Shown here one piece after another: positions 23,899-34,876 of a stretch of DNA of 64,000 nucleotides; within the stretch, counting starts at the first letter, position 1; every line of letters begins with the position of its first letter. Location: positions 1 through 64,000 of the forward strand of contig JAQUMH010000010.1 in NCBI GenBank assembly GCA_028718185.1, in the 5' to 3' direction. The notes beneath the pieces are model-generated. The model was not told where the DNA came from and did no database searches. It saw nothing but the letters and a program-made list of their open reading frames with translations. Source of the DNA: Elusimicrobiota bacterium. GTDB taxonomy: Bacteria > Elusimicrobiota > UBA8919. A program made the position numbers and the translations under genes.

Positions 23899-23927
23899 TT
23901 GACAAAAAACCATCATGGTGTTATATA
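23899..23927 (+). promoter_or_regulatory. Promoter of the long leader or non-coding RNA
   Basis: TTGACA (23899-23904) and TATATA (23922-23927) are separated by 17 bases. No gene starts for another 590 bases, so the transcript would begin with a long untranslated region holding the structures described at 24061-24419. Confidence 0.6.
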
Positions 23928-24060
23928 TATGGTGAAGAGCAAGAAGTGATTACAAATAGCATATTGTGAGTATCCATAGAAAATTTACATTTTACGAATA
24001 AACAGAAGGAGGAAACAAAAGTAAAATATGTTGTTTTACCCCGCTAACTGCGGGGTTGCA

Positions 24061-24097
24061 TTCTCGGTCGGTGCAGTAGCTCCGACCTGCGAGTGCT
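24061..24097 (-). repeat. Dispersed GC-rich element, copy C (inverted)
   Basis: TTCTCGGTCGGTGCAGTAGC then TCCGACC is the near-reverse-complement (about 32 of 37 positions) of the element at 24383-24419. A CCCCGC...GCGGGG hairpin lies directly before it (24039-24055). In the transcript the two copies could pair and close a loop of about 285 bases. Confidence 0.6.
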
Positions 24098-24104
24098 AAT
24101 CCGA

Positions 24105-24183
24105 AAAGGCTGCTCCTGCGAAAGCGGGATGAGTTCGCAAAACCAAGGGCTAAGATAGTGAAAGCCAACAGGTTGCCGATAAG
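24105..24183 (+). ncRNA. Candidate c-di-GMP-I-like (GEMM) riboswitch aptamer
   Basis: In order the segment shows AAGGC, a hairpin capped by CGAAAG (a GNRA-type tetraloop), CGCAAAACCAAGGG, CTAAG, then GCCAACAGGTTGCCGA. This matches the order of conserved blocks of the GEMM/c-di-GMP-I aptamer (GGC, GAAA loop, CGCAAAGCC, GGG.CUAAG, AGGUUGCCGA), although the CGCAAA block is preceded by a short insertion (GATGAGTT). Family aptamers often control adhesion and matrix genes. Here the next gene is the PorV-like gene. No covariance search was possible, so a degenerate or non-functional copy cannot be excluded. Confidence 0.42.
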
Positions 24184-24201
24184 CGACAAATAATAAGAAA
24201 G

Positions 24202-24280
24202 ATCTTAGTAATAAATTGAAATAAAGTAGAAATATAGAGAAATTACTAAGACCAACTATCAAGCCAGCAAGGTTACCGAA
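24202..24280 (+). ncRNA. Switch-like hairpin and second GEMM-like 3-prime signature
   Basis: TCTTAGTAAT (24203-24212) and ATTACTAAGA (24242-24251) form a perfect 10-bp stem. The left arm can alternatively pair as ATCTTAG with CTAAGAT (24150-24156) inside the aptamer-like region, so the two structures exclude each other. AAGCCAGCAAGGTTACCGA (24261-24279) then repeats the 3-prime block of the upstream candidate aptamer, CTAAGA included. Confidence 0.4.
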
Positions 24281-24284
24281 AATC

Positions 24285-24382
24285 AAAGAAGTTAATTAGA
24301 AAATTAGTTGATTAGTGAATTAGGTTGAATAAACTTAATTCGCTAAATTAGCCAACTAATATCTATTGAACTTCTTTTTTTT
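24285..24382 (+). terminator. Long hairpin with U-tract (terminator or attenuator)
   Basis: AAAGAAGTT (24285-24293) pairs with AACTTCTTT (24369-24377). Between them, ATTAG-rich words on the left are imperfectly complementary to GCTAAATTAGCCAACT on the right. Eight T residues (24375-24382) close the structure. It would end the promoter-driven RNA at about 450 bases, or attenuate the PorV-like gene 140 bases downstream. Confidence 0.5.
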
Positions 24383-24419
24383 AGTGCTCGGAGTTCGGAG
24401 CTACTGCACCGAACGAGAA
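24383..24419 (+). repeat. Dispersed GC-rich element, copy B
   Basis: AGTGCTCGGAGTTCGG then AGCTACTGCACCGAACGAG: same strand and same family as 411-455, and inverted relative to 24061-24097. It is followed by a hairpin (ATCCCGATT with AATCGGGGT, 24424-24462) and AAGAAC words at 24471-24502. Confidence 0.6.
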
Positions 24420-24470
24420 CACAATCCCGATTACATATTCCATTATAAATAAGAATCGGGGTAATCAAAT

Positions 24471-24502
24471 TAGAACACAAGAACAAAAGAATATAAGAAC
24501 AG
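24471..24502 (+). repeat. AAGAACATAAG word-repeat
   Basis: AGAACACAAGAACAAAAG followed by AATATAAGAACAG: degenerate tandem words directly before the PorV-like ribosome-binding site (AAAGGGGG). Confidence 0.5.
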
Positions 24503-24519: not shown

Positions 24520-25470
24520 ATGCGTAAGATGTTAAGTTCAGTAATGCTGGCAGTAATGATAGTCGGTACTATATGTACAGCTAAATTAGAAGCCGGTGCT
24601 GGCACAACAGCTATGCAATTCTTGAAAGTAGGAATAGGTGCCAAGCAGGAAGGTATGGGTGGTGCACAGGTAGCAGTAGCAGAAGATGTCAATAGCGTAT
24701 ACTGGAATCCTGCAGGATTAGGTTCAGTAAGTGCAACCGAACTATCATTTATGCATTTATCACTTTATGAAGGAATAAATTACGAATATCTGGCAATAGG
24801 ACATCCTGTAAACGAGAGCTCCACAATAGGGTTACAAATAATGTACCTTAATTATGGTAGTATGGACAAGACATTAGAAGATGTTAACGGTGCATATGAT
24901 GCGGTAGGCAGTGTAGGCACTTTCGGTGCTAAAGACATTGGTGGCGCGATAAGTTACGGCAAACAGGTTGACGATACAATCAATGTAGGTGGTAGTTTAA
25001 AGATGGTAAACCAGAAGATAGACACAAACAATGCATCCGGATTTGGGTTAGATTTAGGGGTAGAGTATGTCCCTGTTAAAGGTGGAATACAATTAGGTTT
25101 AGCGATACAAAACATAGGTGGAAAAGTAGGCAGCAGCAGTATGCCGAGCAATATAAAAGCCGGGCTAGGCAAGAAGTTATCGGCATTTGAAGGCGAGAAC
25201 AATTTAACGGTAGCAGCAGATGTTAATTATAGATTAGACAATACAGGTATAAAAGAGAATATAGGAATGGAATTAATGATTGCTGAGATGATAGGAATCA
25301 GAGCAGGTTATAAAATAGGATATGATGAAGAGACCTACACGTTAGGCGGCGGGTTTAAGATAAATGGTGAAAGTTCTACGTTTAATATAGATTATGCGTT
25401 TGTCCCGACAAAAGACTTAGGTGACACACACAGGATATCGTTAGGGATAAGGTTTGGGGCAAAGGAATAG
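24520..25470 (+). CDS. PorV/PorQ-like outer-membrane beta-barrel protein (UPF0164 type)
   Basis: Product of 316 residues with a signal peptide (MRKMLSSVMLAVMIVG, cut near LEA-GAG). TAMQFLKVGIGAKQEGMGGAQVA, EDVNSVYWNPAGL and LSFMHLSLYEG are the signature of the PorV/UPF0164 family, related to FadL-type barrels. The rest alternates amphipathic strands (GGAISYGKQV, LGLAIQNIGGK) and ends in a strand, ISLGIRFGAKE, typical of outer-membrane proteins. In the type IX system PorV carries C-terminal-domain cargo at the outer membrane. The next gene encodes a giant protein with such a C-terminal module, which supports a shared export role here. No core type IX motor genes are in the window. Confidence 0.82.
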   Translation: MRKMLSSVMLAVMIVGTICTAKLEAGAGTTAMQFLKVGIGAKQEGMGGAQVAVAEDVNSVYWNPAGLGSVSATELSFMHLSLYEGINYEYLAIGHPVNESSTIGLQIMYLNYGSMDKTLEDVNGAYDAVGSVGTFGAKDIGGAISYGKQVDDTINVGGSLKMVNQKIDTNNASGFGLDLGVEYVPVKGGIQLGLAIQNIGGKVGSSSMPSNIKAGLGKKLSAFEGENNLTVAADVNYRLDNTGIKENIGMELMIAEMIGIRAGYKIGYDEETYTLGGGFKINGESSTFNIDYAFVPTKDLGDTHRISLGIRFGAKE

Positions 25471-25489: not shown

Positions 25490-25630
25490 CCAATGTTCGA
25501 TGTCAAATGTCAAGAAAATTGAAAGATTGAAAGATTAATGATAGAATGTAAAACAAAAATAAGTCCGAAGTCAAAAAAGATTATAAAATATATGAACACG
25601 AGAACATTAGAACATAATAACATAAGAACT
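25490..25630 (+). repeat. AATGTC and AAGAACAT word-repeats
   Basis: GTCCAATGTTCGATGTCAAATG then TCAAG, GAAAGATTGAAAGATTAATG, and GAACACGAGAACATTAG then AACATAATAACATAAGAAC are three neighbouring runs of degenerate words. An open frame runs through them into the next gene, but the GGGGG box at 25640-25644 places the true start at 25652. Confidence 0.5.
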
Positions 25631-25651
25631 GAAGTAAAAGGGGGTAAAGAT

Positions 25652-28600
25652 ATGGGTAAGATTATTAGATGGGGTATGATGTTAATAGCAGTAACATTTG
25701 TTAGTTGCATGGTTACAAGAAGCTGGGCTGATTTTTATCCAGGGACGGCTGACAACATTTACAGAGATTATACTAAAATAGCACAACTTGGCGTTTGTGG
25801 AAATCCGGTAACAGCAAGTTGGTTTTTTAAATCTAATGGCGGACAATGTGATCCAACCCCACCATCAAACGCTCCGGTTCCGTATACTTTAACCGGCGTT
25901 GATATTGCCAACGCAACGAAAGCAGAAGTATATGTAACTTTTTGGGGCGGACACAATAAGGTAACCGGTCATAAGTTCAACGTAAATGGTGGAACGCAAT
26001 TTTATTATATGCCACAACTTACCGGTACACCTACTGCTTCTTCTAATTATCTTAAATTTCAATATTCCGCAGCACCAACAGCTATTCCTATATCCACGTT
26101 AGTTTCAGGAAATAATACTATTGGAGTTACTGCTGAAACTCAGCCTGACGGCGTTCCGTTTTACTGGGTATATTCGGTTACAGTACGTGTCTATTATGAT
26201 AGTTCAAAACTTCATCCTACGGGAACTATATCAGTGACTCCTGGAGCTGATAGTCAAACTTTCACTGCCAATGTGCCCGCATATACAGGTGGAATAAGGC
26301 AAGTAGACTATATCGGGAACTATAAAGATTATAACTGGGAAGGTGATGGCCGTTTTCAAAACTGGCATCATACATATAAGAACGGAATACTTGATAAACA
26401 TATAGGTACTGGTTCCGGTACTTCTTATTCAGCAACATGGGATACCCGCTGGGTACCCGACCAGGACCAACCAATGAAAGCAGTAGCTCGTATAGTTGGT
26501 AACGATGGTATGTGTTATATCACAGATGCTGTTAATCTTAACTTTTCCAGGAACTATTCCATAAAATTAATTTCTTCTATTGATGTTCCACAAGGTTTTG
26601 GTGTCGCCAGTTATGGTCCAGTTACAAGCTACTGTCATTATAATATTGATACAATGACCAATGCAACAGCTGCAAAACTTATTATTCATACTTTTGCCGG
26701 TTCAGGAGAGTGTTGGAACAATACAGCAGATGATGCTACTATACGTGAATTGGGAATTAATGGTACTGTGTTAGCCGGTACACCGGGCACAGGCACACCG
26801 GCAAGTATTCCTATTGGTATATCATTAGCGAATGGGGGTAACGCTTTTAATACTTATGATATCACAAATCTTAGTTATTTGCATTCCGGCTCAAATGAAT
26901 TTTTTATCAGGTGCAATACGGCACACCATTGGCTTGAGGTAACTTGGCCGGGACCGGCATTATTAGTGAAATATAATACTGTCGGCATGCCTACGGCGAG
27001 TATAACAAGTCCGTCTAATAGTGCAACATTTTCAGCACCGGCGAATATAACAATCAATGCAACAGCAACTGACAGTGATGGAACAATAACCAAGGTAGAA
27101 TTTTATCAAGGTACTACTAAGTTAGGTGAAGATACAGTAAGTCCATATAGTTATGCATGGTCAAATGTCCCGGGAGGTAGTTATACACTTACAGTAAAAG
27201 CAACAGATAATAGTGGAAACATAACGACATCAAATCCTGTAAGTATCACCGTGTCAGGAGGTTCAACAGTAGGCGGTTGGTGGGATACCAATTGGAATTA
27301 TAGAGTAGGGTTGGATATTCAGGCAGGAGCATATACAAGGACCAATAAACCCGTAGAAAAAGATATTAATTTTACAACATTAGTAACCGGTCTTGGAGGA
27401 AGTGGAGCATTTGACCCGGGTTCTATCCGTGTAGTAGAAGTACTTGGAGATGGTACAGTAGTTAATGCAAATGTTCCGTTCCAGTTTAACCAATCAAGCA
27501 CATATAATGCAACAACAAACGCGTCCGGCACACTTGTGTTTATTATGGATAATACGACAGTAGCGAATGCAACGAGATATTATCATGTATATTTTAACAC
27601 AGGGACAAGTATGACAGCTCCCACAGTAACCCCACAGGTAACACTGACAGATAATGTAATGGTAGAAGGACAATCGAGTTATAAATTAGATACAGCGAAT
27701 GCGACTTATATGTATCATAAAATAGGTGGTGGTTTTGCCAGTATAATAGACAAACAAAACAATGACTGGATATCATACAAGCAAACACCTCATAACAGTT
27801 CAGGAGGTTCATTCCGCGGAATACCAAATCTGGGTGTATGTGGTCATCCCGGATATACAGCAGATGCATATGACCCGACAACTGTTCTTGGCGCCAATTC
27901 AACAATAGTAAGTCAGGGTCCTTTAAAAACTACTATTCATTCAATAACAACAGATAACAACTGGGAATGGACATGGGATTTCTATCCTACTTATGCAAAG
28001 ATGACATTATTGAAAAGGGACCCTGCAAAAAGTTATTGGTTTTTATATGAAGGCACTCCTGGTGGGTCATTTGTAGCGGGTAGTGATTATTACTATAGGT
28101 CAAGTGATACAAGTCAACAAAGCGGTTCGACGGCTTTTGGTGCGGACATACCATCTCCTGAATGGATATATTTTGCAGATGGAACAATAAACAGGAGTTT
28201 ATTTTTAGTTAATAATACTGATGATTCTTTAACTGATAGCCATCATGCTATGACAGATAGTGGTGGTAGTATGACAGTATTTGGTTTTGGCAGAGGAACA
28301 ACAGCAGACCCTTCATCTACAGCAAATTGGCTAACTGCATGTCCTGCATACTTCACAATAGGACTTGCAGACAGCAGAGATTATGCAACGACATCAAAGA
28401 CAATAGAATCAGCGTGGCGAGATTTGGGTATTGTACAGCGAACAGCAGAAAAGAAAGATGGTAGTATAACACCGCCGCCACCGTCACTAACTCTGTCGTT
28501 TAAAGAAGTAACTCTTAATGCTGCCGGATATCTTTATGGGCGGGCAATTGGAGATATAGATGGCGATGGTAAAAGCGAGGTAGTGGCAAACGATTGGGCA

Positions 28601-31600
28601 TCATATAGTCTCGGCAGTCACGGACTTGTTTATTTCGATTATCCTGATGCAACAGAAAAAACACTTATATCATTTTCAGGTTATCCTGACTATACCTATT
28701 GGCGAAGTGATGACATAAGATTAGCGGACATGAACAAAGATGGTAAATTGGATGTAATAGGCGGAATATCTGCTACTTATGGAGATAACAATAATTGTAT
28801 GGTAGAGTTATGGGAGAACATGGGTGGCGGAGTATGGACACGGCATAATTTGGATACAGCAGCAAATACGTATTACATAAAGAACATAGTAATAGCAGAC
28901 ATAGACAGGGATGGTAAATTAGATGTAGTGATTAGAACTGACCCATATAGCAGTAGTCTAAGTGCAAACATATGCATATATTTTCAGGATACTTTAAATT
29001 CTTGGGTTAAGAAAAGTTTTAATACAGTTATAGATGAAGGTATGGATGTAGGTGATATAGATGGTGATGGCTATCCGGATATAGCAATTGGCGGCAGATG
29101 GTATAAGACACCAGCGACCGGTCAAAGAACAGGAACATATACTGCCTACGATTTTGCGTCTAAATGGTTACCCACAAGTCCGGAACAGTCAGGTTTCCCT
29201 AGTTGGGCACAAGGCGGCTGCAGAGTAAAGATTGCAGATTTAAACGATGATGGTAAAAATGAGATACTAGTAAGTCCTGCAGAAGCGCCTACAAAAACTC
29301 TTCCGGTAGCATATTATACTTCTAATAATCCGACTGGTGGAGTAAGTGCATGGACTGAACATGTCTTAGAGGCAAATATTCAGAATGCGCACACATTAGA
29401 AGTAGCGGACTTTGATAAGAACGGTAAATTGGATGTACTCTGTGGCGGTATTGGTCTTAATAATTTTGGAGATAATGCTGATAAAGGACTTTGGGTTTAT
29501 TTACAAAGTCCGGATGGAACTTTTACTCGTTCTAATATAACACAAGCTACCAAAGGTGCTTATTGTGCAATAATAGGCGACCTCAATAATGATGGTGATA
29601 TAGATATAGCAAATGTTAGTAGTTTTACTAATGGTCCTTCTACGGTTTATGAGAATCTAGCTTCTGCGTTTTCACTTGATAAATGGACATACAAACAAAT
29701 AGATAATAGTCGTGAAGTATATAGAACTACACCCTGGACTGTTGCGTTTTTTGGTATAACAGCAGCAGACCTTACTGGTCATAATAATGGATACAAGGAT
29801 ATAGTATCAGGTAAATATTTCTATCGTAATCCCGGTGGCGATATGACAGGCACATGGAATAGGACTACCTTTCCCGTTAACTGTGACGGTATCCTTGCAG
29901 TGGATGTAGATAGCGATGCATATGCTGATGTTATAGCAGAAATGCTTCCGGATGTATATTGGTTAGAAGCTACTTCACCTGATGGCTCTTCATGGGTGGT
30001 GCGGGCAACAATAGGTCAGGTACCGGCTACAGTACATGGATTAGGTCAGGGAGCAGCACTCGCACAAATAATACCAGGCGGTAAACCCGAGATAGTAATT
30101 ACAGGTGGCTCTACTGGTAGTGAGACCTATTATTTCCAAATTCCTACTACAAACCCGGAAGCAGGGAACTGGCCAAGAACACTTGTTACAAGCGCAGGTA
30201 GCGATGAAATGATAGGAGTTGGTGACATAGATAAAGATGGAAATTTAGATATAGCCGCAGCGGACCGCAGTACACCATATCAGGTGGCATGGTGGAAAAA
30301 TCCCGGTGTTGCCGGACAGGCAAACTGGACTAAATATGTAATAGGAACAATTAACGTAGGACCAGCGTCGGGTTTTCCGAACTGTGCGCGTTTAGCAGAT
30401 ATAAATGGCGATGGTAGATTAGATTTGGTAATAAGTGCGGAGGACTATTTGAGTACCGGTCCCAATTCACCTTCATACTGGTATGAATGTCCGGCTAATC
30501 CAACTGCTAATAATTGGATATGTCATACGATAGCTATGGGTAGCGCACTTAACAGTTTGGATGTTGCAGATGTAGACAAAGACGGCGACATTGATGTTAT
30601 GGTAGGCGAGATGAAGACAAACAAGAGACTTTGGATTTATGAGAATAACGGACAAGGCACTCTTACATCACATTTAGTGGCTAGTGGTTACGAGACCAAC
30701 GGAGCAAAAATGCTTGATTTGGATGGCGATGGCGATTTGGACATAGTAAGCCCAACTTTTGATGCTCCTCAATATCTACATATGTGGCGTAATGATGCTG
30801 TTGGCACTGGCACACCCGTTAATACACCACCGACAGTAAACATAAGTGCAATTGATGTTACAAATGGTAATATAGCACCTGCTACATTAACAATAAAAGT
30901 AAACGCATCTGACACTGACGGTATAAAGCAAGTAGATTTTTATAGTAATAGTAACTGGATTGGAACAGACACTAGTTCACCATATGAGTTTGCATGGACT
31001 GTTAACAACCCGGGGGATTACAGTATACAAGCAAAAGCAACCGATAATGGTACTCCCAATGCTACTGCAATGTCGGCAGCACAAGTAGTGACAATAACAG
31101 GTGTTACACCACCGGCAACACAGCAGGCATATCCCGCAGGCGTAGCATGGTTAGTCGGAACAGGGACAACAACAATACAGTCAGAAGATTACGATATGGT
31201 AACAAATGGTGTTGCCGAAGGCGAAGCATACCATGATACAACAACCAGCAACAAGGGTGGCGGATACAGAACAGCTGAAGGCGTAGATGTGAGAGCAATT
31301 ACTTCAGATGCAGGTGGTGGCTACCAGGTAGGTTGGACAGTACCCGGCGAGTGGTTAGAATACAGTATAAATGTAAATCAAGCCGGTAATTACAAAATAA
31401 TACTTAGGGGCGCCAATGGAGAGACAAGCGACGGTGGTCCAATGCACATTGAATTCGTCCAAAATAACGCAACTTATGTTCAAACGACACCTTCAGTAGG
31501 CACACCGCCGACAGGTAGTTATGAAACATTTACAGATGTAACACTTTCAGCCGGAGTAACACTTAACGCAGGTAACCAGATAATGAAGTTGGTTATGGAC

Positions 31601-34600
31601 AATAGTTCAGCAGTTGGCAATGGTGATATTAATTATATCCAGTTAGTACTGGTAAGTGCAGAGACACCTAATACAGTAGCGACACCGACAATAAGTCCGG
31701 CAGCAGGGACATATTCAGGTTCTGTTAGTGTAACACTTACGTGTGCAACCGGCGGGGCAGAAATAAGATATACAACAAACGGGACAGACCCGACATCATC
31801 ATCAACGTTATATTCCGCACCGTTTACATTAACTGCGAATGCTACAGTAAAAGCCTGTGCGTTCAAAACTGCTATGACCGACAGTTCAATAAATAGTGTG
31901 GCATATATCATAACAAATACTTCAACTCAGCAGGCATATCCCGCAGGAGTAGCATGGTTGGTAGGAACAGGGTCAACAACGATACAAGTAGAAGATTACG
32001 ATATGGTAACAAGTGGTTCCGGTGAAGGTGTAGCATATCATGATACAACACCTGGTCAGGAAGACGCATCGAACACATACAGACCAACAGAGGGAGTGGA
32101 CGTAGAGGCATGCACTGACATAGGTGTGGGATATGATATAGGATACACAATCGTAGGTGAATGGTTAGAATACAGCGTGAATGTTAATCAGAGCGGCAAA
32201 TATAAAATAGTATTAAGAACCGCCCGTGGCACTACAGTTGATGATATGGTACATCTTTCATTCATTCAGAACAGTGCAACATATCTTGTAACACCGTCAG
32301 TAAGCTTACCTGGAACAGGCGGCTGGCAGGTATGGGTAGATACAGAAGTCGCAACTGATGTAACACTTAATGCGGGTAACCAGATAATGAGATTAGAACT
32401 GGATTCCAGCGCTGCGACATATTGCAGTAATTTTAATTACATCAAGTTAATAAGAACAAGTGCAGAGACAATTAATACAGTAGAAACACCGACAATTAGC
32501 CCGAGCGCAGGAACATATTCAAATTCTGTTACAGTAACGTTAGGCTGTGCAACCAGTGGAGCAGAGATAAGATATACGACAAACGGTACAGACCCGACAT
32601 CATCGTCAACGCTATATTCCGCACCGTTTACATTAACTGCGAGTGCAACGGTCAGAGCCCGTGCGTTCAAAGCTGCTATGACCGACAGTTCAGTGAATAG
32701 TGTAGCATATACAGTAACAATTGCTTCACCGCAACAGTCATATGGCAATAATGGTAACCCGTGGCAGATAATAACAGGTACGACAACGATAGAGGTAGAA
32801 AATTTCGACACTGTAACAAGCGGTATTGCTGAAGGCGAGGCGTATCATGATATGGATGCCACTAACAGGGGTGGAGCATACAGGACAACCGATGGTGTAG
32901 ATATAGAGGCAGTCACCGGTGCAAGTAACGGCTACGATATCGGGTATGTAGTTCCCGGCGAATGGTTAGAATACAGTGTAAATGTAAATCAAGATGGCGA
33001 CTACAAAATAATAGTAAGCGCAGGCAATGGAGGTACAACTGCAAGTCCGTTCCATGTTGAATTTGGTCCGCATAATGCAACAAACATTGTAACACCATCA
33101 GTAAGCATACCTAATACAGGCGGATGGACGACCTTTACGGATATAACAGTTGCAAATTCTGTAACACTTGCCGCCGGCAACCAGATAATGAAGTTAGTAA
33201 TGGAAACCGGTAGTGCATCTAATAACGGTAATTTTGATTACATCAAATTAATAAGACAAACTCCTGATACCACACCACCTGTAGTAAGTGCAGTAGTATC
33301 GGCAAATATTACCGGCAGTGGATTGGTAATAACATGGACTACCAATGAGCCGGCAAACAGTAAGATAGAGTATGGATTAACTACAAGTTATGGTAGCGCT
33401 ACCGTTATAACAGATACCACTGGTGTATATACACACAGTGTTACACTAAGTGGTCTTACTGAGAAGACAGCCTATCATTACAGGATGGTGTCCGTAGATA
33501 TGAACGGTAACACGACAATGACCGGAGATTACAGTTTTACAACGACAGCATATGATACTACAGCACCGGTAATAAGTAATGTATCCGCAGGAGTAACACA
33601 AAATAGTGCAGTAATAAAATGGAATACCGATGAGAACTCCGATTCTCAGGTAGGATATGGAACTACGACATTGATGGGTACCGCAACTACCTTAGATGCG
33701 ACATCAACCAGGTTACATAGTGTTTCACTTAGCGGATTACAGAAAGGGAAAACTTATTATTACAAGGTTTATAGCAAAGATGCAACCGGCAATCTTGCTA
33801 CATCATCACAATATAGTTTCAAGACATACAACCTGAAACACAAGATATATACCTATTACTATGATGATGGGACAACGACAACTAAAGTAGGTGCAACACC
33901 GGCTGTGAGTTTGAAGTTCAAGGTACAGGTATATAATGTAGATGAGAACAGTATTGCAACTGACTATACCGGCACTTTAACACTTACAACGAAGAACAGC
34001 AAAGGCACTGAACTGGATACAACAGATTCAACATTAGTTACTGCAGATGCAGGTGAGAAGGAAGTTGCTATCCCGTTCCGTAGTGATATAAATACAGTAG
34101 AGTTAAGCGGTGATACGACAGCGCCGGTAGTGATAGGCTTTAATGATATGTATATAGCAAAATTAGTTGGCTACCAGGGTGGTTCAATACGTGGCGCCAA
34201 CGGGTTAAAGATACTTATACCTACAGGAGTCTTGTCTGCGAACAAATATCTTGCATCAATAAAGACGAGTGCTGCACCGGAAGTAAAGAACACAATGAAA
34301 TATGTTAATACACTAAATCCGATATGTTACGATTTCGGCGAGTTAACATTCAACAATAATGCACCTGTATTGGAAAACCAGACATTCACAAGGGCAGTGA
34401 ACATAACAATACCATATACAGCAGCGGACATAGGGACATTAAACGAGGATGGACTTAGAATCTACTACTGGACAGGAACAGATTGGGAATTAGTATCAGG
34501 AGTCCAGACAGTAGACAAATCAAACAACACAATAACTGCAACAGTCAAACATTTCTCAACATACCGGATATTAGGTAGTTATGTATCTGCCGACATGAGT

Positions 34601-34876
34601 AATGTTAAAGTTTATCCTAATCCTTATAATCCTGACACAGCAGTTCTTGGTAAGCTAAAAATTATAAATTTACCAATGAATAGCGTTATGAAGTTGTATA
34701 GTGTGGATGGTGAATTAATCAGGGAACTCAAAGAGCTCGACTTTGGTAATCTTGGTTGGCTCGAGTGGGATGGCAAGAATGGCGATGGTGACAAAGTAGC
34801 CAGAGCAGTATATATCTATCACATCGAAGACGCTGCCGGCAACAAGAAGACAGGCAAGATAGGACTTATAAGATAG
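25652..34876 (+). CDS. Giant secreted protein: Ig, VCBS propeller, 3 CBM6, Fn3, FlgD-Ig C-terminus
   Basis: Product of 3,074 residues. Signal peptide MGKIIRWGMMLIAVTFVSC, cut near SWA-DFY. Approximate domains: unassigned N-terminal region 25-445; Ig-like 447-536; unassigned sandwich region 540-943 opening WWDTNWNYRVGL; about a dozen FG-GAP/VCBS-type repeats 960-1720, each with a calcium loop such as GDIDGDGK or ADINGDGR; Ig-like 1724-1815; CBM6, hexosaminidase-C-like, CBM6, hexosaminidase-C-like, CBM6 (1824-2535); two Fn3 (2540-2726); a conserved module 2728-2985; and a FlgD-Ig-like end with VYPNPYNPDT and WDGKNGDGD. No catalytic domain was identified, so it is likely a surface adhesin or glycan-binding scaffold, possibly with an unrecognised enzyme in 540-943. 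Start chosen by GGGGG eight bases upstream. Its neighbour is PorV-like. Confidence 0.85.
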   Translation: MGKIIRWGMMLIAVTFVSCMVTRSWADFYPGTADNIYRDYTKIAQLGVCGNPVTASWFFKSNGGQCDPTPPSNAPVPYTLTGVDIANATKAEVYVTFWGGHNKVTGHKFNVNGGTQFYYMPQLTGTPTASSNYLKFQYSAAPTAIPISTLVSGNNTIGVTAETQPDGVPFYWVYSVTVRVYYDSSKLHPTGTISVTPGADSQTFTANVPAYTGGIRQVDYIGNYKDYNWEGDGRFQNWHHTYKNGILDKHIGTGSGTSYSATWDTRWVPDQDQPMKAVARIVGNDGMCYITDAVNLNFSRNYSIKLISSIDVPQGFGVASYGPVTSYCHYNIDTMTNATAAKLIIHTFAGSGECWNNTADDATIRELGINGTVLAGTPGTGTPASIPIGISLANGGNAFNTYDITNLSYLHSGSNEFFIRCNTAHHWLEVTWPGPALLVKYNTVGMPTASITSPSNSATFSAPANITINATATDSDGTITKVEFYQGTTKLGEDTVSPYSYAWSNVPGGSYTLTVKATDNSGNITTSNPVSITVSGGSTVGGWWDTNWNYRVGLDIQAGAYTRTNKPVEKDINFTTLVTGLGGSGAFDPGSIRVVEVLGDGTVVNANVPFQFNQSSTYNATTNASGTLVFIMDNTTVANATRYYHVYFNTGTSMTAPTVTPQVTLTDNVMVEGQSSYKLDTANATYMYHKIGGGFASIIDKQNNDWISYKQTPHNSSGGSFRGIPNLGVCGHPGYTADAYDPTTVLGANSTIVSQGPLKTTIHSITTDNNWEWTWDFYPTYAKMTLLKRDPAKSYWFLYEGTPGGSFVAGSDYYYRSSDTSQQSGSTAFGADIPSPEWIYFADGTINRSLFLVNNTDDSLTDSHHAMTDSGGSMTVFGFGRGTTADPSSTANWLTACPAYFTIGLADSRDYATTSKTIESAWRDLGIVQRTAEKKDGSITPPPPSLTLSFKEVTLNAAGYLYGRAIGDIDGDGKSEVVANDWASYSLGSHGLVYFDYPDATEKTLISFSGYPDYTYWRSDDIRLADMNKDGKLDVIGGISATYGDNNNCMVELWENMGGGVWTRHNLDTAANTYYIKNIVIADIDRDGKLDVVIRTDPYSSSLSANICIYFQDTLNSWVKKSFNTVIDEGMDVGDIDGDGYPDIAIGGRWYKTPATGQRTGTYTAYDFASKWLPTSPEQSGFPSWAQGGCRVKIADLNDDGKNEILVSPAEAPTKTLPVAYYTSNNPTGGVSAWTEHVLEANIQNAHTLEVADFDKNGKLDVLCGGIGLNNFGDNADKGLWVYLQSPDGTFTRSNITQATKGAYCAIIGDLNNDGDIDIANVSSFTNGPSTVYENLASAFSLDKWTYKQIDNSREVYRTTPWTVAFFGITAADLTGHNNGYKDIVSGKYFYRNPGGDMTGTWNRTTFPVNCDGILAVDVDSDAYADVIAEMLPDVYWLEATSPDGSSWVVRATIGQVPATVHGLGQGAALAQIIPGGKPEIVITGGSTGSETYYFQIPTTNPEAGNWPRTLVTSAGSDEMIGVGDIDKDGNLDIAAADRSTPYQVAWWKNPGVAGQANWTKYVIGTINVGPASGFPNCARLADINGDGRLDLVISAEDYLSTGPNSPSYWYECPANPTANNWICHTIAMGSALNSLDVADVDKDGDIDVMVGEMKTNKRLWIYENNGQGTLTSHLVASGYETNGAKMLDLDGDGDLDIVSPTFDAPQYLHMWRNDAVGTGTPVNTPPTVNISAIDVTNGNIAPATLTIKVNASDTDGIKQVDFYSNSNWIGTDTSSPYEFAWTVNNPGDYSIQAKATDNGTPNATAMSAAQVVTITGVTPPATQQAYPAGVAWLVGTGTTTIQSEDYDMVTNGVAEGEAYHDTTTSNKGGGYRTAEGVDVRAITSDAGGGYQVGWTVPGEWLEYSINVNQAGNYKIILRGANGETSDGGPMHIEFVQNNATYVQTTPSVGTPPTGSYETFTDVTLSAGVTLNAGNQIMKLVMDNSSAVGNGDINYIQLVLVSAETPNTVATPTISPAAGTYSGSVSVTLTCATGGAEIRYTTNGTDPTSSSTLYSAPFTLTANATVKACAFKTAMTDSSINSVAYIITNTSTQQAYPAGVAWLVGTGSTTIQVEDYDMVTSGSGEGVAYHDTTPGQEDASNTYRPTEGVDVEACTDIGVGYDIGYTIVGEWLEYSVNVNQSGKYKIVLRTARGTTVDDMVHLSFIQNSATYLVTPSVSLPGTGGWQVWVDTEVATDVTLNAGNQIMRLELDSSAATYCSNFNYIKLIRTSAETINTVETPTISPSAGTYSNSVTVTLGCATSGAEIRYTTNGTDPTSSSTLYSAPFTLTASATVRARAFKAAMTDSSVNSVAYTVTIASPQQSYGNNGNPWQIITGTTTIEVENFDTVTSGIAEGEAYHDMDATNRGGAYRTTDGVDIEAVTGASNGYDIGYVVPGEWLEYSVNVNQDGDYKIIVSAGNGGTTASPFHVEFGPHNATNIVTPSVSIPNTGGWTTFTDITVANSVTLAAGNQIMKLVMETGSASNNGNFDYIKLIRQTPDTTPPVVSAVVSANITGSGLVITWTTNEPANSKIEYGLTTSYGSATVITDTTGVYTHSVTLSGLTEKTAYHYRMVSVDMNGNTTMTGDYSFTTTAYDTTAPVISNVSAGVTQNSAVIKWNTDENSDSQVGYGTTTLMGTATTLDATSTRLHSVSLSGLQKGKTYYYKVYSKDATGNLATSSQYSFKTYNLKHKIYTYYYDDGTTTTKVGATPAVSLKFKVQVYNVDENSIATDYTGTLTLTTKNSKGTELDTTDSTLVTADAGEKEVAIPFRSDINTVELSGDTTAPVVIGFNDMYIAKLVGYQGGSIRGANGLKILIPTGVLSANKYLASIKTSAAPEVKNTMKYVNTLNPICYDFGELTFNNNAPVLENQTFTRAVNITIPYTAADIGTLNEDGLRIYYWTGTDWELVSGVQTVDKSNNTITATVKHFSTYRILGSYVSADMSNVKVYPNPYNPDTAVLGKLKIINLPMNSVMKLYSVDGELIRELKELDFGNLGWLEWDGKNGDGDKVARAVYIYHIEDAAGNKKTGKIGLIR

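Follow-up and report, generated by a model that had tools for sequence, protein, structure and literature searches.

A predicted c-di-GMP-I-type riboswitch with one 5' half and two 3' halves ahead of PorV-family genes in an Elusimicrobiota genome

The closest described relatives of the leader studied here are the c-di-GMP-I riboswitches of Rfam family RF01051 (GEMM-I) and the variant RF03167 (c-di-GMP-I-GGC). The leader has the same block order, a GAAA-capped P2, a CGCAAA junction, the AACC/GGUU elements, a CCGA end, a terminator behind the aptamer and genes for the outer surface downstream. It differs in that there are two 3' halves per 5' half, that the P2 junction is altered, that the copy in the window scores under the gathering threshold and that in the derived copies, to which it belongs, the terminator lies apart from the second 3' half. 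In the accessible text of published accounts, GEMM switches of described mechanism have a single 3' strand, and their ON or OFF logic comes from the expression platform. The pilM (ON) and Cd1 (OFF) switches follow a P-A-T-H strand scheme, and the A strand of pilM is part of the terminator, so that, as here, aptamer strand and terminator are mutually exclusive (accessible sections of PMC9262584). In the elements described below, in contrast, the A strand is present twice, and the terminator arm has as its antiterminator partner a further copy of a strand from the aptamer itself. Repeated aptamer parts within one leader are also found in tandem c-di-GMP-I riboswitches (PMC9481103, PMC12452182, PMC4759541). 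In the portions of the first two papers that were available, these repeat whole aptamers, whereas here the repeat comprises the 3' half alone and neither an entire aptamer nor an expression platform. Glycine riboswitches with a ghost aptamer likewise place a complete aptamer beside a partial one; the available text of PMC6944388 has ghost aptamers scaffold by tertiary contact, whereas the two 3' halves considered here would be alternative partners of one strand. No description of a duplicated 3' half was found in the literature searched, which included the available parts of PMC9049102, PMC11218506 and PMC10907184 and covered few subscription papers.

The leader is flanked by an AraC-type gene and a PorV-family gene within a window of 64,000 nucleotides, by which we mean the whole stretch of DNA that was analysed. 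Below, P denotes the 5' half of the putative aptamer, A1 the proximal and A2 the distal 3' half, and H the 3' arm of the terminator. The features are as follows.

23899-23927, + strand: promoter-like TTGACA (23899-23904), 17 nt, TATATA (23922-23927); from sequence, with similar boxes upstream of other copies
24039-24055, + strand: short GC hairpin CCCCGC-TAACT-GCGGGG within the variable 5' flank
24063-24093, + strand: upstream copy of a dispersed palindromic repeat, forming a long inverted pair with 24387-24417
24100-24158, + strand: P, 5' half of the c-di-GMP-I-like aptamer (RF01051 match, genome pattern sites, P2 covariation), with G20 equivalent at 24108, GAAA loop at 24120-24123, CGCAAA at 24136-24141 and P3a GGGCTAAGATAG at 24147-24158
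24163-24179, + strand: A1, putative proximal 3' half AGCCAACAGGTTGCCGA; C92 kept, G83 absent
24180-24254, + strand: variable spacer, folding here as TCTTAGTAAT (24203-24212) / ATTACTAAGA (24242-24251)
24255-24279, + strand: A2, putative distal 3' half ACTATCAAGCCAGCAAGGTTACCGA; G83 and C92 both kept in the window copy, CTATC lengthening P3
24286-24382, + strand: AT-rich terminator hairpin, then T8 (24375-24382)
24387-24417, - strand: downstream inverted copy of the dispersed palindromic repeat
24520-25470, + strand: PorV/PorQ-family outer-membrane protein gene (NF033709)
25538-34876, + strand: giant surface protein gene, 3112 aa (FG-GAP, CBM6, CBM35, Big_7, CHB_HEX_C, fn3)

An earlier sequence-only reading of this DNA had reported the aptamer, a TTGACA/TATATA promoter, a terminator-type leader whose AT-rich hairpin ends in eight T residues, and a PorV-like gene followed by one for a giant surface protein. 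All of these are present, the gene behind the leader matching NF033709 with 180 bits (cut-off 90) and the next encoding the FG-GAP/CBM protein; what the reading overlooked was that a second 3' half exists and that the leader belongs to a family of about 30 copies. The generic promoter scanner did not list the TTGACA/TATATA boxes of the window, nor did the generic terminator scan flag its hairpin and T8. A TTGAC[AT]-N16-18-TA-box arrangement lies at most 500 nt upstream in 19 of 28 derived copies scanned, and a similar hairpin with a T-run is retained in the paralogous copies. The same reading had also proposed a switch between alternative ATCTTAG/CTAAGA pairings. The pairing in question belongs to the 10-bp spacer hairpin, which is unique to the window copy among 28 double copies, and it is therefore not a conserved switch.

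The aptamer had been proposed from the ordered GEMM blocks GGC, GAAA loop, CGCAAAACC, CTAAG and GGTTGCCGA, and these were found at 24108-24179. The Rfam model RF01051 aligned over its full length to 24098-24180. The alignment scored 26.3 bits (E 0.0083 in 1 kb), which is under the gathering score of 35 bits, and across the whole window no Rfam family reached its gathering score. In the window's own genome (G000, 3.03 Mb) RF01051 had 38 matches at E<=10, of which six lay above gathering and 32 under it; C2:96424 scored 38.3 bits and C9:51843 34.6 bits. At the same E-value 8 of 14 control genomes also had matches, none above gathering. Of 99 genomes sampled from the phylum, the window's own included, 50 had an RF01051 match at E<=1, and in 33 a match exceeded gathering. 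One element with double halves, G005:C112:7001 from a relative in the same family, reached 52.4 bits. The RF01051 match of the window leader is not a product of chance.

The recurrence of the 5' half and the covariation of P2 speak further against chance. The 5' half, searched as a 28-base pattern, had 33 sites in G000, namely the 32 members of the derived subfamily, that of the window, and a divergent cousin, C2:96424; the reversed control pattern had none. The pattern had no site in the remaining 98 phylum genomes, where relatives keep the plan with different sequences. A GAAA loop caps the P2 stem in all 32 derived copies, and the stems comprise 11 different sequence pairs, complementary save for one type of C-A mismatch. 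A stem that covaries around an invariant loop implies selection at the RNA level, and on this sequence evidence the P2 covariation shows selection on RNA structure. By a strict motif both 3' halves are present in 30 of the 32 derived copies, the remaining two being C11:33022, with a degenerate A1, and C11:186, at a contig end. Near-identical copies also occupy the first bases of contigs C19, C25 and C26, so the assembly seems to have broken at the riboswitch repeat and the copy number may be undercounted. The P2 variant GGC-NN-CYC...UGAG-UN-CGC of the derived family is shared by single-half GEMM-I elements of two related genomes (L078, L079, L082, L083 and L086 in G002 and G005), which suggests a lineage-specific aptamer subtype.

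Following Vc2 numbering as we take it to apply, the equivalents of the ligand contacts are G 24108 (G20), A 24139 (A47) and, for C92, C 24176 in A1 and C 24276 in A2. In P3 the CTAAG strand of the tetraloop receptor is kept; a matching strand of the UAUGG type, which we assume to be the receptor partner, was not recognised in A1 or A2. The interhelical pair C44-G83 corresponds to C 24136 and G 24267, the latter in A2, and the G is missing from A1. G20, A47 and C92 contact the ligand in GEMM-I (PMC4744006), and C44-G83 is universally conserved in GEMM (PMC4744006, PMC3764141), as stated in the sections of these papers that were available. A23 and A25 of P2 (GGCAAA), listed among conserved GEMM-I positions in the available part of PMC3764141, were not found: the window has GGC-TG-C, and GGC-UG-C replaces them across the derived family. 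The 5' flanks vary among copies and, by eye, have no common pairing with the 3' flanks that would make a P1 closing helix; a description of Cd1 without P1 is mentioned in PMC9262584 (accessible sections).

The departure of P2 from the consensus, the many own-genome matches under gathering and the U that takes the place of C92 in 12 of the 30 A2 sites of derived copies might mean that the aptamer is real and senses another cyclic dinucleotide, or that many copies no longer bind a ligand. This is unlikely in our judgement, and would be compatible with the strand-competition models discussed below. G occupies the equivalent of position 20, as in the c-di-GMP state, and not the A of the c-AMP-GMP type, the placement of this position in the alignment depending on the Vc2 numbering that we assume; an aptamer of the cGAMP type is not favoured for the same reason. 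The genome also has eight GGDEF and five HD_5 matches, which make a c-di-GMP signalling system plausible. That position 20 sets specificity, G for c-di-GMP and A for c-AMP-GMP, is stated in the available part of PMC9481103.

The arrangement of one P with an A1 and an A2 is the main feature of this leader. In the derived copies A2 begins 42-146 nt beyond A1, CTATC is present in 31 of 32 A2 sites, and the calculated pairing of P with A2 is stronger than that with A1. The A1-A2 spacers are unrelated between copy groups and, by eye, usually form hairpins; inspection of the spacers of 28 double copies revealed no second 5' half. A second 3' half was scored on a motif together with a duplex of -11 kcal/mol or lower, with dinucleotide shuffles as control, in elements that had a first half and at least 220 nt (30 of 37 own elements, 25 of 34 from relatives and 33 of 44 others). 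Own elements had one in 27 of 30 cases (0.83% of shuffles), those from relatives in 11 of 25 (1.08%) and those from other families in 2 of 33 (4.58%), the own copies being paralogues and some of those from relatives orthologues or near-duplicates. Independent sequence classes of double halves would perhaps number six or seven. Duplex energy with a wide motif was not discriminating, since at least two halves were then counted in 26/71 family, 14/44 other and 134/1100 shuffled sequences. A tighter motif gave at least two in 29/37 own elements, 14/34 from relatives and 3/44 others, with an incomplete shuffle control. Partner exchange among 14 elements gave mean pairing values for P3a with A2 of -13.7 (own) and -9.2 (foreign), and with A1 of -10.6 and -5.8. 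For A2 every cognate pairing was stronger than the mean of its non-cognates, some individual non-cognates being stronger still; for A1 two cognates failed to exceed that mean. On the sequence comparisons, the leader is best explained as that of a riboswitch of the c-di-GMP-I type (GEMM-I) whose single 5' half is predicted to pair with either of two 3' halves.

The P-A1-A2 plan recurs with different sequences in genomes of the same family, and one convincing double-half element lies outside it (L111, G011:C11). When five double elements were aligned, the RF01051 match extended to A2, with A1 as an insert, in four (L007, L066:520, L074 and L076:5182), and in the fifth (L076:502) stopped at A1 with 52.4 bits. 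For C19 and C25 the match reaching A2 scored 29.8 and 29.7 bits and that stopping at A1 24.9 and 24.8. Three double-half elements of relatives (G003:C45:4428, G007:C227:4759 and G006:C108:22617) are directly followed by a second GEMM-I-like element, forming natural tandems; these second elements have a long P2 insertion and a AGATACAGAATCTA junction.

How the second half relates to the terminator depends on the group of elements. In single-half relatives H pairs with the 3' strand of the aptamer, as in the ON switch pilM (PMC9262584). Among the doubles outside the derived subfamily, H pairs better with A2 than with A1 in 15 of 15, including C2:96424, C1:651849 and C5:4296 of the window's own genome, a count favoured by the choice of the T-run with the best A2:H energy. 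When the first T-run was used, A2:H pairing was obtained in 10 of 14, and the other four fell on an internal T-run. Equilibrium pairing calculated on growing transcripts proceeded from P:A1 to P:A2 and then to A2:H in most non-derived elements tested, the A1-to-A2 switch being weak or absent in C2:96424, G004:C93 and L111. In the derived copies A2:H amounts to merely -2.5 to -5.0 kcal/mol (three checked), and the terminator partner begins about 15 nt past the GG of A2 and overlaps neither 3' half. For this reason the derived relay ends at P:A2. No common antiterminator was detected among the 25 derived copies searched, an internal T-run having been picked in some. As calculated, an ON layout, in which an aptamer strand is shared with the terminator, is that of 15 of 15 non-derived doubles and not that of the window subfamily.

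Tandem c-di-GMP-I riboswitches are common (347 doublets in the available part of PMC9481103) and occur in relatives (G003:C45, G007:C227), and the sequences that separate the two halves are not related to one another. The second 3' half could accordingly be what is left of a tandem pair whose second 5' half has decayed, with no present role, much like a ghost aptamer. We regard this as quite improbable, given that A2 is itself a terminator arm in the 15 non-derived doubles, that the two halves are maintained together with complementary P3 changes and that the strict motif retains both in nearly all derived copies (30/32).

Diagnostic positions bear on which of the two halves would bind the ligand. 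The ligand-pairing base C92 is retained in A1 of 30/30 derived copies and in A2 of 18/30, with U in the other 12. G83-C84 shows the opposite pattern, being kept in A2 of 26/30 and in A1 of none of the 30. In the non-derived doubles G83 stands at register in A1 in 10 of 15 and in A2 in 14 of 15 (table read by eye). Here A1 looks competent too, and these elements may differ from the derived copies. The stabilising contacts of Cd1 include the pair that we take as the C44-G83 equivalent (PMC9262584, accessible sections). Since G83-C84 is kept in A2 and the RF01051 match tends to extend to A2 where A2 is near, we favour P+A2 as the ligand-bound antiterminator of an ON switch with A1 as a built-in competitor, and give this reading a probability of about 0.5. 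P would pair first with A1 during transcription and thus be parked until the emerging A2 displaced A1 through its longer pairing with P. In the relatives A2 would then be contested by H. Binding of c-di-GMP to P+A2 would keep A2 from H and let transcription continue, while without ligand A1 would help to hand A2 to H and transcription would stop, A1 thereby reducing leak-through. The derived subfamily would have conserved the P:A1 and P:A2 steps and moved its terminator off A2.

The roles of the two halves can also be read the other way. If P+A1 were the real aptamer, ligand would trap it early and free A2 for the terminator, and P+A2 would be the ligand-free antiterminator; addition of a second 3' half would then have converted an ON riboswitch to an OFF riboswitch. 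A1 is transcribed first and has C92 in 30/30 derived copies, most elements pair P more strongly with A2 when no ligand is present, the non-derived A1 retains G83 in two thirds of cases by eye, and in L076:502 the profile aligns to A1. Against this, a pure antiterminator strand would not need the G83-C84 that derived A2 sites mostly keep and derived A1 sites uniformly lack, the profile extends to A2 in most aligned doubles, and single-half elements of the same genomes have A strands overlapping the terminator, as in an ON layout. An OFF switch is the main alternative, though on the unlikely side.

The wider proposition is that the 3' strand of the aptamer has been duplicated, that the 5' half chooses between two partners for one of which the terminator competes, and that at about 30 loci one second messenger thereby governs cassettes for PorV-type and giant carbohydrate-binding surface proteins; we put this at slightly better than even. 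By such a duplication evolution could readily tune the leak of a riboswitch or flip its sign, and single-half, double-half and derived versions coexist naturally in one bacterial family. Among 28 derived copies examined, downstream sequence exists for 25. The first gene is PorV-like in 19 of these, and in the remaining 6 it is related to the giant protein. The 3-Mb genome contains 53 PorV/PorQ-family matches, 44 of them above cut-off, a striking expansion in itself, and the riboswitch would therefore control a large part of this set, not all of it. This suggests c-di-GMP control of a large surface-protein repertoire in the lineage.

The fold of 24000-24480 was stronger than 100 of 100 shuffles (z -13.4), much of this signal being due to the inverted pair of dispersed palindromes. 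The long closing helix 24063-24093/24387-24417 was rejected as a functional stem: its flanks are modular dispersed palindromes, a strong inverted pair is found in some copies only, and most others have no such flanks. A leader that is mainly a repeat or mobile element, with the aptamer blocks hitch-hiking or arising by chance, is very unlikely. Palindromes do lie beside many copies, with 51 sites in the genome at up to two mismatches, and copies are found at several contig ends. The palindromes are modular, however, being missing beside several copies and present elsewhere without an aptamer, while the P-A1-A2-terminator core does not vary, and a PorV-like or giant gene follows each of the 25 copies that have downstream sequence. 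The palindrome core CGGTGCAGTAGCTCCG, to which these 51 sites belong, is also found in G002 and G005 and occurs in either orientation, adjoining riboswitches and elsewhere. In many copies, e.g. L052 and L053, a different repeat module, TTTTATTGAGTCCCCTACYGGAGACCAATAAAACAATCCCG, replaces the palindrome behind the terminator.
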